In this document: positions 47,329 to 52,831 of the stretch, one piece after another | How the letters are laid out: every line of letters starts with the position of its first letter | Position numbering within the stretch: position 1 is the first letter of the stretch | Assembly (NCBI RefSeq): GCF_003121705.1 | Contig: NZ_PYHR01000002.1 | Coordinates: forward strand, 1,488,001-1,552,000 | Length of the DNA: 64,000 nucleotides | Source of the DNA: Serinibacter arcticus | Lineage (GTDB): Bacteria; Actinomycetota; Actinomycetes; Actinomycetales; Beutenbergiaceae | Direction: 5' to 3' | The notes under the pieces: generated by a model | Database searches by the model: none | The model's input: the letters and a program-made list of their open reading frames with translations, nothing else | Told to the model about the DNA's origin: nothing | Position numbers and translations under genes: made by a program

Positions 47329-47333
47329 CGGGC

Positions 47334-47399
47334 CGCCCCACGAGGGGGTACTTCCCGCCCCTCCAGGGGGCACTTCCCGCCCCTCCAGGGGGCACTTCC
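47334..47399. repeat. Tandem array, 22-bp period (array B)
   Basis: Three 22-base units (47334, 47356, 47378). Units 2 and 3 are identical and read CGCCCCTCCAGGGGG then CACTTCC; unit 1 has ACGAG in place of TCCAG and TAC in place of CAC. On the minus strand each unit contains GGAAGTGCCCCCTGGAG, a self-complementary CCCC/GGGG mini-hairpin. It lies between converging genes. Confidence 0.9.
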
Positions 47400-48252: not shown

Positions 48253-49314
48253 TCAGGCGTGCGCCGGCACGGCGACCAGCGACAGCGACATCGAGGAGTC
48301 GACCGCGAGGTCGAGGGGCGACGGCGCGACGCCGGCCCGCACCAGCGCCGACCCGAGCGCGGCGATCATGGCACCGTTGTCCGTGCAGTACCGGATCGGC
48401 GGTATCCGCACCTCGACGCCCGCCTCCTCGCACCGCTGCGCCGCCAGCTCCCGCAGCCGTGAGTTCGCCGAGAAGCCGCCACCGATCACGAGCGTGGAGA
48501 CGTCGTGCTCGGCGCACGCCCGGAGGGTCTTGGTGACCAGCACGTCGGCGACAGCCTCCGAGAACGACGCCGCGACATCGGCCTTCGACCACTCCTCGCC
48601 CGCGTCCGTCCGGCCCTCGATGTAGCGCGCGACGGCGGTCTTGAGCCCCGAGAAGGAGAAGTCGTACGGGTGCCGCGCGAGCTCGCGCCCCTTCGACAGG
48701 CCGCGCGGGAACGCGATGGCGCGGGGGTCGCCCTCCTTGGCCAGCCGGTCGACGTGCGGACCGCCCGGATAGGGCAGCCCGAGCAGCCGGCCCACCTTGT
48801 CGAACGCCTCACCGGCAGCGTCGTCGAGCGTCTGCCCGAGCTCGACGACATCGGTCGCGATGTCGTTCACGAGCAGCAGCGAGGAGTGCCCGCCCGAGAC
48901 GACCAGGGCGAGGAACCGCTCGGGGAACGCGCCGTGCACGAGCTCGTCGACGGCCGCGTGCCCCACGACGTGGTTCACCCCGTAGAGCGGCAGGCCGAGG
49001 CCGAGCGCGAGCGCCTTCGCCCCCGCCGTCCCCACGGTCAACGAGCCGACGAGACCCGGTCCGGAGGCGACGGCGATCGCGTCGACGTCGGCCAGCGTCA
49101 CCTCCGCAGCGGCGAGCGCCTGCGTGATCGTGGGGCGGAGCGCCTCGAGGTGGGCGCGGGAGGCGACCTCCGGCACGATGCCGCCGTAGCGCGCGTGCTC
49201 GTCCATCGAGGACGCCGTCACGTCCGCCAGCAGGGTGCGCCCACGCACGAGCGCGACCCCGGTCTCGTCACAGGTCGACTCGATGCCCAGCACCAGCGGT
49301 TCAGTCACGGCCAC
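48253..49314 (-). CDS. tsaD: tRNA N6-threonylcarbamoyladenosine transferase TsaD
   Basis: A 353-residue ASKHA-fold protein that, with TsaB and TsaE, transfers the threonylcarbamoyl group to A37 of ANN-decoding tRNAs. Visible: [15 protein letters not shown] (~residues 9-23), the metal-binding NHVVGHA (~113-119), [31 protein letters not shown] and [11 protein letters not shown]. Start is one of two GTGs (49314 or 49308). In this window tsaE and tsaB are in the next minus-strand unit, separated only by the plus-strand nitroreductase. Confidence 0.96.
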
Positions 49315-49358: not shown

Positions 49359-49392
49359 AATCCTCGCCGCGCGGGTGGTTGTTGTTTCAAGC

Positions 49393-50004
49393 ATGACGAC
49401 TCTCGCGTCCCCCCTCGCCCTCGACGACGCCGCGCTCGACCTGCTCTTCCGCGACGCCCGCTCCGTCAACGCCTTCGCCGAGCGTGAGGTCGACCCCGCC
49501 GAGATCCAGGCGGCCTACGACCTCCTGCGCTGGGCCCCGACGGCGATGAACACCTCCCCGCTCCGGCTCGCCGTCGTCCCCCGCGGCCGGCAGCGCGAGC
49601 GCCTGGCCTCCCACATGAGCGAGGGCAACCGCGCCAAGACGCTGGCCGCGCCGCTCACCGTCGTCGCCGCGTCCGACCCGGCGTTCCACACACACCTCGA
49701 CGTCCTCGCGCCGCACCGCACCGGACTGGCCGAGTCGCTGGAGCCGCAGGCCGAACGCCGCGAGGGCATGGCGCGGACCAACGCCCTGATCCAGGTGGGT
49801 TACCTCGTCCTCGCGCTGCGCTCGCGCGGGCTGCACGTCGGACCGATGGGCGGCTTCGACACCGCCGGCGTCGACGCCGACCTGCTGGCGGACCAGGGCT
49901 GGCGCAGCCAGCTCGTGCTGAACGTCGGGTGGGAGGCAGCCGAGGGCGGCATCCACCCCCGCGCGGCTCGCCTCGAGGCGAGCGACGCCGTCGCCGTCCT
50001 CTGA
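49393..50004 (+). CDS. RutE-like nitroreductase family protein (malonic semialdehyde reductase type)
   Basis: A 203-residue flavin-dependent nitroreductase of the RutE/HadB subgroup. Typical features: LFRDARSVNAF (~residues 15-25), LRWAPTAMNTSPLRLAVV (~46-63), a central PHRTGLAESLEPQAERREGMARTNA segment and HVGPMGGFD (~151-159). RutE reduces malonic semialdehyde to 3-hydroxypropionate in pyrimidine degradation, but no other rut genes are here, so the substrate is open. I chose ATG 49393. A perfect CRP-type palindrome lies just upstream, so regulation by a CRP/GlxR protein is likely. Confidence 0.85.
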   Translation: MTTLASPLALDDAALDLLFRDARSVNAFAEREVDPAEIQAAYDLLRWAPTAMNTSPLRLAVVPRGRQRERLASHMSEGNRAKTLAAPLTVVAASDPAFHTHLDVLAPHRTGLAESLEPQAERREGMARTNALIQVGYLVLALRSRGLHVGPMGGFDTAGVDADLLADQGWRSQLVLNVGWEAAEGGIHPRAARLEASDAVAVL

Positions 50005-50037: not shown

Positions 50038-50103
50038 GGGGCAGTAAGTGCCCCCTGGTGGGGCAGTAAGCACCCCCTCGAGGGGCGCTAAGTACCCCCT
50101 CGT
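50038..50103. repeat. Tandem array, 22-bp period (array D)
   Basis: Three 22-base units at 50038, 50060 and 50082, each starting GGGGC, then three variable bases, then AAG and CCCCCT with a four-base end (GGT, CGA or CGT). A partial fourth unit follows. Each unit can fold as CCCC-NNN-GGGG with its neighbour. It lies between the converging nitroreductase and RimI-rhodanese genes. Its sequence is the same family as array B. Confidence 0.9.
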
Positions 50104-50117
50104 GGGGGTGGGCGGGC

Positions 50118-51530
50118 TCAGTCCCCCGTTGCGACCTCGCGCTCCGGGTCGTTGGCCCACTGCGAGAACGAGCCCGGGTACAGCGCCGCCTCCACCCCGA
50201 TCGAGGCCAGCACCGCCACCTGGTGCGCCGCGGTGACGCCCGAGCCGCAGTAGACGGCGACGTCGACACCGGGCCGGACCTCGAGCCCGGCGAACCGCGC
50301 CACCAGGTCCTCGGGCTCCAGCAGCCAGCCGTCGAGCGTGAGGTTGCCGCGTGTCGGGGCGCTGCGCGCCCCCGGCACGTGTCCGGCGCGCGGGTCGACC
50401 GGCTCGACGGCGCCCGTGAACCGCTCGTGGTCGCGGGCGTCGAGGAGGACGCCCGGGTAGTCGGCCACCTCGTCGGCCGTGACCGTCGCCAGCCCGCCCG
50501 GACGGACGACGACGGCGCCCGGCCGGGGCCGCACGAAGCCGTCCTCGAGGTGGTGGCCGGCGCCGACCCAGGCGCGCAGCCCGCCGTCGACGATGCGCAC
50601 GTCGGCGACCCCCGCCCAGCGCAGCAGCCACCACGCGCGCGCGGCCGACGTCCCACCGGTGTCGTCGTAGACCAGGACGGTCGAGCCGTCGTCGATGCCC
50701 CACCGGCGGGCGGTCGCCTGCAGGTCCTCCGCGGTGGGCAGCGGGTGGCGCCCCTCCTCCGGCGAGGGCGTCGAAGCCAGCTCGGCGTCGAGGTCAACGT
50801 AGACGGCGCCCGGCAGGTGGCCGCGCACGTAGACGGCCGAGCCGTCGGTCTGCCCCAGCGCCCAGCGCACGTCGAGCACCACCGGCGGATGCTCGCTCCA
50901 GATCAGGTCGTGCGCGGCGTCGACGTCGATGAAGACGCGCTCGCGCGCGGACACCGGCGCGTGCGCGCCGCCGTCCCGCCGGCCGCCCGCCCCGTCGGCC
51001 GGGCGCTCGTCCGCGATCCCGGCGTGGTCGCCCAGGGCGCCCTCGCCGTCGGACCCCGCGGTCGTCTCGGCGCCGACCACACCGACGCGGCGCACGAGGT
51101 CGAGCCGCATCACGACGGCGTCCGCCCCCTCGGGCTGGTAGTACCGCTTGCGCAGCCCCACCCGCACGAACCCGGCGTTGCGGTAGAGCTGCTGCGCACC
51201 GCCGTCGTGGGCCCGCACCTCGAGGAAGAGCTCGCGCGCGCCGGCCTCGCGGGCCGCGGCGAGCAGGGCGTCCAGCAGGGCCGTCGCCACGCCCCGCCGC
51301 CGCGCCTGCGGGGCGACGCCGACGGTCATGATCGTCCACTCGGGGTCGAGCGCGACTCCGCCGTAGCCCAGCAGCGCGCCGTCGTCGTCGACCGCCGCGA
51401 GGTAGGTGCGGTCGTCGCGGGCGAGCTCGTCGACGTAGGTCTGCCGCGACCAGGCGCCGACGCCGAACAGCTCGGGCTCCAGCTCCTCGACACGGTCGAG
51501 GTCGCGCGGCTCCAGCGCTCGCATCTGCAT
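50118..51530 (-). CDS. Fusion of RimI-type N-acetyltransferase and tandem-rhodanese sulfurtransferase
   Basis: A 470-residue two-part protein in one frame. Residues ~1-147 are a RimI GNAT domain (MQMRALEPRDLDRVEELE; TVGVAPQARRRGVATALLDA; GAQQLYRNAGFVRVGLRKRYY), which in other bacteria acetylates the N-terminus of ribosomal protein S18. After a ~45-residue Gly/Asp-rich linker, residues ~195-470 are an SseA-type sulfurtransferase: an inactive rhodanese repeat (PPVVLDVRW; GHLPGAVYVDLD) and an active one with CGSGVTAAH (~431). A GTG at the domain boundary has no ribosome binding site, so one long protein is favoured. It follows tsaB by 4 bases. Confidence 0.84.
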   Translation of the reverse strand: MQMRALEPRDLDRVEELEPELFGVGAWSRQTYVDELARDDRTYLAAVDDDGALLGYGGVALDPEWTIMTVGVAPQARRRGVATALLDALLAAAREAGARELFLEVRAHDGGAQQLYRNAGFVRVGLRKRYYQPEGADAVVMRLDLVRRVGVVGAETTAGSDGEGALGDHAGIADERPADGAGGRRDGGAHAPVSARERVFIDVDAAHDLIWSEHPPVVLDVRWALGQTDGSAVYVRGHLPGAVYVDLDAELASTPSPEEGRHPLPTAEDLQATARRWGIDDGSTVLVYDDTGGTSAARAWWLLRWAGVADVRIVDGGLRAWVGAGHHLEDGFVRPRPGAVVVRPGGLATVTADEVADYPGVLLDARDHERFTGAVEPVDPRAGHVPGARSAPTRGNLTLDGWLLEPEDLVARFAGLEVRPGVDVAVYCGSGVTAAHQVAVLASIGVEAALYPGSFSQWANDPEREVATGD

Positions 51531-51534
51531 CGGG

Positions 51535-52251
51535 TCAGTCCTTCGGGGTGGTGACGGTCGGGGCGGGGGGAAGGTCGGGCGGGGACGTCTCGAGTGCCCC
51601 CGGCACGCCGTGGACGTCGGGGCGTCGCAGGTACAGCGGCGTGAGCGGCACGGGCTCGCCGGCGGCGACGCGGGCCGCCGCGAGGTGGGCGAGGTGCTCG
51701 GGCTGCAGCTGCGTGCCGCCGGGGACGGCCTCGCCGTAGGCGTCGGGGTAGAGCGCCGCGGCGGTCCCGACGCTCGGCACCGGGGCGCCGTCGACGACGG
51801 GACGGTGGACCGCGAGGTCGCCCTCGCGGCGCAGCCCGCCGGGGGCGGTCTCGTCGCGCGCGTACGCGGCCGTGTAGACCTCGCGACGGCGGGCGTCGGT
51901 CGCCACGAACACCCGGGTGAGCGCGGGGTCGGCCGCGAGGGCGCCCGCCGCCCAGGCGTCGAGGCTCGGCACGCCCCAGACGGGGACGCCGGTCGCGAGC
52001 GCCAGCATCTCCGCCGTCGCGAGACCGACCCGCAGCCCCGTGAACGGGGCGGGTCCGGTGCCGACGGCGATCGCGTCCAGGTCCTCCGGCGTCAGGCCGG
52101 CCTCGGCCAGGACCTCGGCGACGAGGGGGGCGATGTGCTCGGCGTGCGCGCGGGGATCCTCGGTGGAACGGGCGGCGACCACGTCTCCGTCGGAGACGAG
52201 GGCCACGCGGGTTCCGCTCGAGGTGTCGAGCGCGAGGATGACGTCACTCAC
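51535..52251 (-). CDS. tsaB: tRNA threonylcarbamoyladenosine biosynthesis protein TsaB
   Basis: A 238-residue TsaB. It starts with VILALDTSSGTRVALV (residues ~4-19), then GTGPAPFTGLRVGLATAEMLAL (~65-86), the conserved TsaB signature, and VPVWGVPSLDAWAAG. It is the inactive paralogue of TsaD and scaffolds the t6A complex. Start GTG 52251 follows TGGAGGG. There is a 79-base gap after tsaE and a 4-base gap before the RimI fusion, matching the usual tsaE-tsaB-rimI order. Confidence 0.94.
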   Translation of the reverse strand: MSDVILALDTSSGTRVALVSDGDVVAARSTEDPRAHAEHIAPLVAEVLAEAGLTPEDLDAIAVGTGPAPFTGLRVGLATAEMLALATGVPVWGVPSLDAWAAGALAADPALTRVFVATDARRREVYTAAYARDETAPGGLRREGDLAVHRPVVDGAPVPSVGTAAALYPDAYGEAVPGGTQLQPEHLAHLAAARVAAGEPVPLTPLYLRRPDVHGVPGALETSPPDLPPAPTVTTPKD

Positions 52252-52330: not shown

Positions 52331-52831
52331 TCAGCCGGCCAGGGCCGCGGCGAGGTCGACGCCCGCCCACCGGGCGCCGACGCCCCGCACCGTGACCTGC
52401 CGCCCGGCGTCGACGGCGTCGCCGCGGGCACGGTCGATCGCGATCTCGAGGCGGTCGTCGCTGAGCGTCTCCGTCAGCCCCGCACCCCACTCGACGACGG
52501 TGACGGAGTCCTCGAGGGAGGCGTCCAGGTCGAGCGCGTCGAGCTCGGTGAGACCGCCGAGCCGGTAGGCGTCCACGTGCACCAGGGCGGGGCCGTCCGC
52601 GAGCGAGGGGTGCTCGCGGGCGATGACGAAGGTCGGGGAGGCGACCTGGCCGCGGACGCCGAGCGCACGGCCGAGGCCCTGCGTGAGCGTGGTCTTCCCG
52701 GCGCCGAGGTCACCGGTGAGGATCACGAGGTCGCCCGCGCGCAGCACCGCGGCGAGCCGCTCCCCCAGCGCCGTCGTGGCCTCGTGGTCGACCAGGTGGA
52801 CGCGGACCAGGCCCTCGTCCGCCGTCACCAC
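52331..52831 (-). CDS. tsaE: tRNA threonylcarbamoyladenosine biosynthesis ATPase TsaE
   Basis: A 166-residue P-loop ATPase with Walker A LTGDLGAGKTTLTQGLGRAL (~residues 38-57), followed by SPTFVIAREH and the Walker B-like VHVDAYRLGG and VVEWGAGL (the conserved EW). It drives turnover of the TsaB-TsaD complex. Start is GTG 52831 or 52828; the latter overlaps the alr stop as GTGA. Confidence 0.94.
   Translation of the reverse strand: MVTADEGLVRVHLVDHEATTALGERLAAVLRAGDLVILTGDLGAGKTTLTQGLGRALGVRGQVASPTFVIAREHPSLADGPALVHVDAYRLGGLTELDALDLDASLEDSVTVVEWGAGLTETLSDDRLEIAIDRARGDAVDAGRQVTVRGVGARWAGVDLAAALAG

Follow-up and report, generated by a model that had tools for sequence, protein, structure and literature searches.

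The window analyzed here is a stretch of 64,000 nucleotides from Serinibacter arcticus (contig NZ_PYHR01000002.1, positions 1,488,001 to 1,552,000). On its minus strand, alr, tsaE, tsaB, and a gene that joins rimI to a sulfurtransferase follow one another, and after these come a nitroreductase-family gene on the opposite strand and tsaD (Table 1). The alr gene was assigned by its position and by homology in relatives. An earlier note on this DNA, made from the sequence alone, had described a tsaE-tsaB-rimI order, and this is what we found, with TsaE and TsaB directly upstream and TsaD downstream past the opposite-strand gene.

Table 1. Features of the rimI-sulfurtransferase locus (positions within the window).
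Feature	Position	Strand	Evidence or remark
Fused rimI-sulfurtransferase ORF	50118..51530	-	470 aa, ATG start; frame fused in 11/24 family genomes
RimI domain, residues 1-147	51090..51530	-	TIGR01575 95.1 bits, cut-off 86.4
GVVGAE, residues 150-155	51066..51083	-	Counterpart of the C-terminal tail of free RimI
Linker, residues 148-195	50946..51089	-	Disordered at 149-187; scan without Shine-Dalgarno word plus start
Tandem rhodanese (3-mercaptopyruvate sulfurtransferase-like), residues 196-470	50121..50945	-	PF00581 x2; 1urh E 4.1e-32
Active-site loop CGSGVTAAH, residues 428-436, Cys428	50223..50249	-	CGSGVT invariant in 15/15 aligned fused proteins
tsaB (approximate start)	51535..52251	-	TIGR03725 170.3 bits; 4 nt from its stop to the fused ATG
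tsaE	52331..52831	-	TIGR00150 94.7 bits
Nitroreductase-family gene (malonic semialdehyde reductase model), convergent with the fused gene	49375..50004	+	NF003768 213 bits, cut-off 152
tsaD	48253..49314	-	TIGR03723 406.1 bits

Both domains of the 470-aa product are intact. Pfam placed Acetyltransf_1 at residues 19-121 and matched Rhodanese twice in the second half, and the NCBIfam rimI model (TIGR01575) spanned residues 10-141 with a score above its cut-off (98.8 bits in the genome search). Together with the open frame in 11 of the 24 genomes of the family, these domains bear out the claim that RimI is fused in frame to a tandem rhodanese. The best PDB sequence matches were 9mto, a bS18-alanine N-acetyltransferase (E 9.2e-14), for the RimI half and 1urh, Escherichia coli SseA, for the rhodanese half. 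Residues E104, Y116, and C428GSGVT were invariant in every one of the 15 aligned fused proteins (that of the window, 10 others from its family, and 4 from the family f9 introduced below); we take Glu104 and Tyr116 to be the catalytic Glu and Tyr of RimI. The fused protein resembles stand-alone RimI (TIGR01575, ribosomal protein S18-alanine N-acetyltransferase) in its complete domain, key residues, and tsaE-tsaB-rimI context, but bears a second enzyme as a C-terminal extension. The AlphaFold model of the whole protein (mean pLDDT 89.7, pTM 0.79) has two confidently modelled parts that flank residues 149-187, where pLDDT is <50. The model comes with no inter-domain error estimates, so the two halves may pack on each other. 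All 50 listed Foldseek matches were rhodanese-family proteins and so inform on the second half alone. Of the 75 listed references, 66 entered the structure alignment and nine were left out.

The CG[S/T]GVT loop is the signature of 3-mercaptopyruvate sulfurtransferase (MST), an enzyme with two rhodanese domains, and the fused protein has two PF00581 stretches with CGSGVT at residues 428-433. The active-type loop CGSGVTAAH read by the first analysis is present at residues 428-436. With E. coli SseA (1urh), the rhodanese half shares the tandem architecture and the CGSGVT loop, but it is preceded by RimI at the N-terminus and scored 112.8 bits against PRK11493, the E. coli SseA-type equivalog model; since this is below the cut-off of 250, it is classed as MST-like and not as an SseA equivalog. 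It also shares the tandem rhodanese fold (3hzu) with SseA (Rv3283) of Mycobacterium tuberculosis, which is accompanied by the SufE-like Rv3284, but its CGSGVT loop differs from the thiosulfate sulfurtransferase motif CRXGX[R/T] given for that type in PMC12375888. The label "SseA-type" in the earlier note holds with respect to the E. coli enzyme (CGSGVT loop, 1urh as best PDB sequence match) but not with respect to the M. tuberculosis one, which is represented by a separate gene with the loop CRIGERSSH and SufE beside it.

Rhodanese matches in this genome comprise the two domains of the fused protein, one second tandem protein, and two single matches with the loops CKSGVR and CAAGIR; among them, CGSGVT is found in the fused protein only. 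The second tandem protein carries CRIGERSSH and has a divergently oriented SufE gene beside it, a pair that resembles SseA/Rv3284 as described in PMC12375888. As this protein is of the CRIGERSSH-plus-SufE type, the rhodanese half of the fusion is another, MST-like enzyme; its orthology with M. tuberculosis SseA and SufE was rejected, that type being a separate gene in the genome. A profile search for a second, stand-alone RimI in the genome found none above the cut-off beside the fused one (14 weaker matches). Ribosomal protein S18 of this genome starts with MAKP, which is compatible with an Ala N-terminus as the RimI target, and acetylation of S18 is predicted.

Between the conserved edges of the two domains lie about 48 codons, 39 residues of which have pLDDT <50, so the 45-residue linker proposed earlier was about right. 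The linker shows a codon periodicity in GC content of 0.90/0.67/0.98 at positions 1/2/3, which, together with the fused frame in relatives, speaks against a frame that is open by chance. Openness by itself was not counted as evidence of coding, because a GC content this high leaves few stop codons. Two word scans of the boundary (six and seven words, spacing of 4-10 nt) found no Shine-Dalgarno word followed by a start codon in frame with the sulfurtransferase, in agreement with the missing ribosome binding site of the earlier note. Both the length and the sequence of the linker vary among the 15 aligned fused proteins, a pattern that fits a tether rather than a conserved interface.

The fused frame is conserved in relatives, for which a search had been proposed. 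It is open in 11 of the 24 family genomes (G000, G001, G002, G006, G022, G023, G014, G016, G018, G019, and G020), including all three of the genus. The genes are unfused in the other 13: two genomes (G015 and G021) have the same frame as the fused ones but a TGA after rimI, eight have the two genes adjacent in another frame, and three (G011, G012, and G013) have them 5-7 kb apart. The outcome that the earlier note named as a refutation, a stop codon closing rimI in every relative, does not occur. On the tree described below, the clade of the window (SH-aLRT 99) holds six genomes from four genera (g1, g5, g9, and g10) and no unfused member. The distance from RimI to rhodanese in this clade, taken between alignment starts, is 585, 564, 513, 534, 519, and 555 nt; whole-codon offsets are true by definition in a fused frame, and the telling point is a clade without an unfused member. 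As a side observation, the distant genes of genus g7 (G012 = L268, G013 = L269) and of G011 lie on the same strand.

The junction differs in an orderly way among these genomes. A Shine-Dalgarno word of 5-6 nt plus a start was found in all 10 unfused adjacent genomes. In eight of them, rimI ends in Glu-Glu-TGA, and these Glu codons, GAGGAG, sit at the expected Shine-Dalgarno position of the next gene; in seven of the 10, the C-terminal tail of free RimI reads GPVG[AS]E. The five fused genomes of genus g8 have a sense codon at the position of the G015/G021 TGA, and all five retain AGGAG(G), followed at 8-9 nt by an in-frame ATG. These are G014, G016, G018, G019, and G020 (L039, L028, L043, L035, and L029). 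Judging from this signal, the fused g8 gene is a candidate for yielding two proteins, the fusion and the sulfurtransferase on its own. In the clade of the window, the tail persists as GxVG[AV]E and the Glu-Glu end is gone; the word scans found no Shine-Dalgarno word plus start in five of its six genomes (the window, two congeners, G006, and G023). The sixth, G022, has GGAGG-5-ATG, an internal start that was either kept or regained. Because the scan relies on simple words and picks up a start in just 58 of the 107 separate f9 pairs, it may overlook a weak internal start, and a missing start in the four fused f9 members says little.

This second family, f9, holds Cellulomonas and Oerskovia and was assigned by sequence identity with named loci (NCBI family Cellulomonadaceae). 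Among 150 genomes searched, 129 matched and the junction was examined in 128, with G462, at a contig end, left out. Four are fused (G184, G405, G406, and G463), 109 have separate genes, and 15 are without rimI, defined as a RimI match of <50 bits or none within about 1.4-1.5 kb upstream. The separate genes overlap by 4 nt in 88 of the 109 pairs (48 GTGA and 40 ATGA) and lie >1.1 kb apart in two. Among 80 named loci, rimI is upstream in 27, all unfused, and the full order alr-tsaE-tsaB-rimI-sse-(ntr)-tsaD was found in 25 of these. The remaining 53 have none of the other operon genes in the DNA covered (<1.5 kb upstream in two). The 27 loci were not added to the genome counts because 15 of them have the same sequence as an f9 locus. 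In 25 of the 27, the nitroreductase-family gene stands in reverse orientation between the sulfurtransferase gene and tsaD. The rimI-sseA pair is an operon neighbourhood (alr-tsaE-tsaB-rimI-sseA) common to f9 and the family of the window.

Other families of the order contributed 20 loci, 19 without rimI beside the sulfurtransferase gene and one with a separate rimI. No fusion outside the two families was seen among the matches listed in a class scan (rows at E 1e-85 or better, from 54 of 394 genomes) and an order scan (396 genomes). In one genome of the class scan (G583), the row spanned residues 64-469 and contained a stop. RimI-sulfurtransferase fusions may exist elsewhere, beyond the two families.

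The tree was built from 23 of the 24 family genomes (without G011) and 30 of the 113 f9 pairs (all four fused and 26 separate), leaving out the two separate pairs with >1.1 kb between the genes. Parsimony gave five changes of state in total, two of them inside the family of the window; the tree is a quick one with several open forks on which gain and loss are not told apart, so repeated fusion is the likelier reading and not a proven count. With this qualification, the distribution strongly suggests that the RimI-sulfurtransferase fusion recurred. As a control, the tsaB-rimI boundary is fused in none of 23 family and 111 f9 genomes (0/134), compared with 11/23 and 4/113 at the rimI-sse boundary. 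Both boundaries are unfused in the 27 named loci, 15 of which repeat f9 loci. Five changes of state here against no fusion at tsaB-rimI are more than expected under purely neutral change. Either RimI is more tolerant of a partner at its C-terminus, or fusion benefits the pair.

Fusions of RimI with an operon neighbour are already known. Two reports mention a bifunctional TsaB/RimI in Mycolicibacter and tsaB-rimI in M. leprae and Neisseria (PMC5335608; PMC5819568), and the upstream boundary is therefore not generally closed to fusion. These proteins are like the one described here in that RimI is joined to an operon neighbour, but the partner there is the upstream TsaB and here the downstream sulfurtransferase at the C-terminus of RimI. 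The RimI-sulfurtransferase pairing was not found in print, as judged by titles and abstract openings in the openly licensed literature. In M. tuberculosis, the region from alr to groEL1, including rimI, is described as a single operon in which the genes from alr to tsaD overlap by 4 bp (PMC5335608).

The gene is a genuine, clade-conserved fusion, which probably joined coupled operon neighbours into two independent enzymes on a flexible tether. A sequencing or assembly error that deleted a stop or shifted the frame was thought of because the region is GC-rich, and re-sequencing of the boundary had been proposed; with the same fusion in G001, G002, and three further genera of the clade, and with differing linker lengths, such an artefact is ruled out for practical purposes. 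The joined frame could also be nominal, with most of the sulfurtransferase still made on its own from an internal start in the linker. The AGGAG(G) signals of all five fused g8 genomes and GGAGG-5-ATG in G022 would fit this, but no start signal was found in the window, its two congeners, G006, and G023, against 10 of 10 unfused adjacent genomes that have one, and for the window we regard a nominal frame as quite improbable.

It is improbable, though still a reading to be kept in mind, that the fusion was selected because RimI and the sulfurtransferase serve a common process. Examples would be control of N-acetylation by redox state or sulfur, or delivery of sulfur close to the t6A tRNA-modification machinery whose genes lie next to them. 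The five changes of state at one boundary, set against 0/134 at tsaB-rimI, and the neighbourhood of the two genes in both families would speak for such coupling. We know of no substrate shared by RimI and the sulfurtransferase. The linker is conserved neither in sequence nor in length, the pairs are separate in 109 of 113 f9 genomes and non-adjacent in 3 of 24 family genomes, and farther relatives mostly lack the neighbourhood (53 of the 80 named loci, and 19 of the 20 loci of other families without rimI). M. tuberculosis RimI is reported to interact with TsaD, a point in favour, and it acetylated N-terminal peptides of its neighbours and not the folded proteins (PMC4926160). The fuller form of this idea, a recurrently evolved bifunctional N-acetyltransferase/sulfurtransferase with activities that meet in one process, seems similarly doubtful; in it, the g8 gene might have two products because the terminal Glu codons of rimI also serve the next gene as its ribosome binding site. 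The link between acetylation and sulfur transfer raised in the earlier note goes too far, with pairs separate in 109/113 f9 and 13/24 family genomes and an interaction of the two reactions unsupported by tests.

Under the preferred reading of two tethered enzymes, rimI and an MST-type sulfurtransferase gene would have been consecutive, translationally coupled cistrons of an ancestral alr-tsaE-tsaB operon. The coupling may have run through a 4-nt overlap, as in most f9 relatives, an arrangement that implies coupled translation according to PMC10666635, or through the last Glu codons of rimI, with GAGGAG acting as the Shine-Dalgarno sequence for the sulfurtransferase gene. The two frames would then have been joined when the rimI stop was lost or the frame shifted by one base, and in the clade of the window the internal start would mostly have been lost and the linker left free to change. 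With the start mostly lost, the sulfurtransferase is probably made solely as a fusion here. We infer translation as one protein of ~50 kDa with both activities and with no coupling between them: the RimI half would acetylate protein N-termini, and the rhodanese half would pass sulfur from a predicted donor such as 3-mercaptopyruvate to Cys428. Any benefit would lie in fixed 1:1 production and not in substrate exchange, and the fusion would be translational coupling hardened into a single polypeptide.

These genomes form a natural series that runs from overlapping genes through in-frame neighbours separated by a stop to fusions with, and then without, an internal start. Such a well-resolved series shows how translationally coupled genes can turn into one protein. 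Changes at rimI-sse and none at tsaB-rimI hint that the pair profits from equal dosage or proximity; functional coupling, if true, would be the interesting case. For annotation, it is worth noting that RimI or an MST-like enzyme may reside in a two-domain protein.

Just downstream of the fused gene, at 50046-50107, lies a tandem repeat with a 22-nt period and the self-complementary core AAGTRCCCCCTNNNGGGG. The repeat recurs on the opposite strand at 47333-47398, about 2.6 kb from there. The AAGTRCCCCCTNNNGGGG core pattern has 35 exact matches genome-wide, compared with none for the backwards control, and nine repeat units stand in a row at C2:146473-146666.
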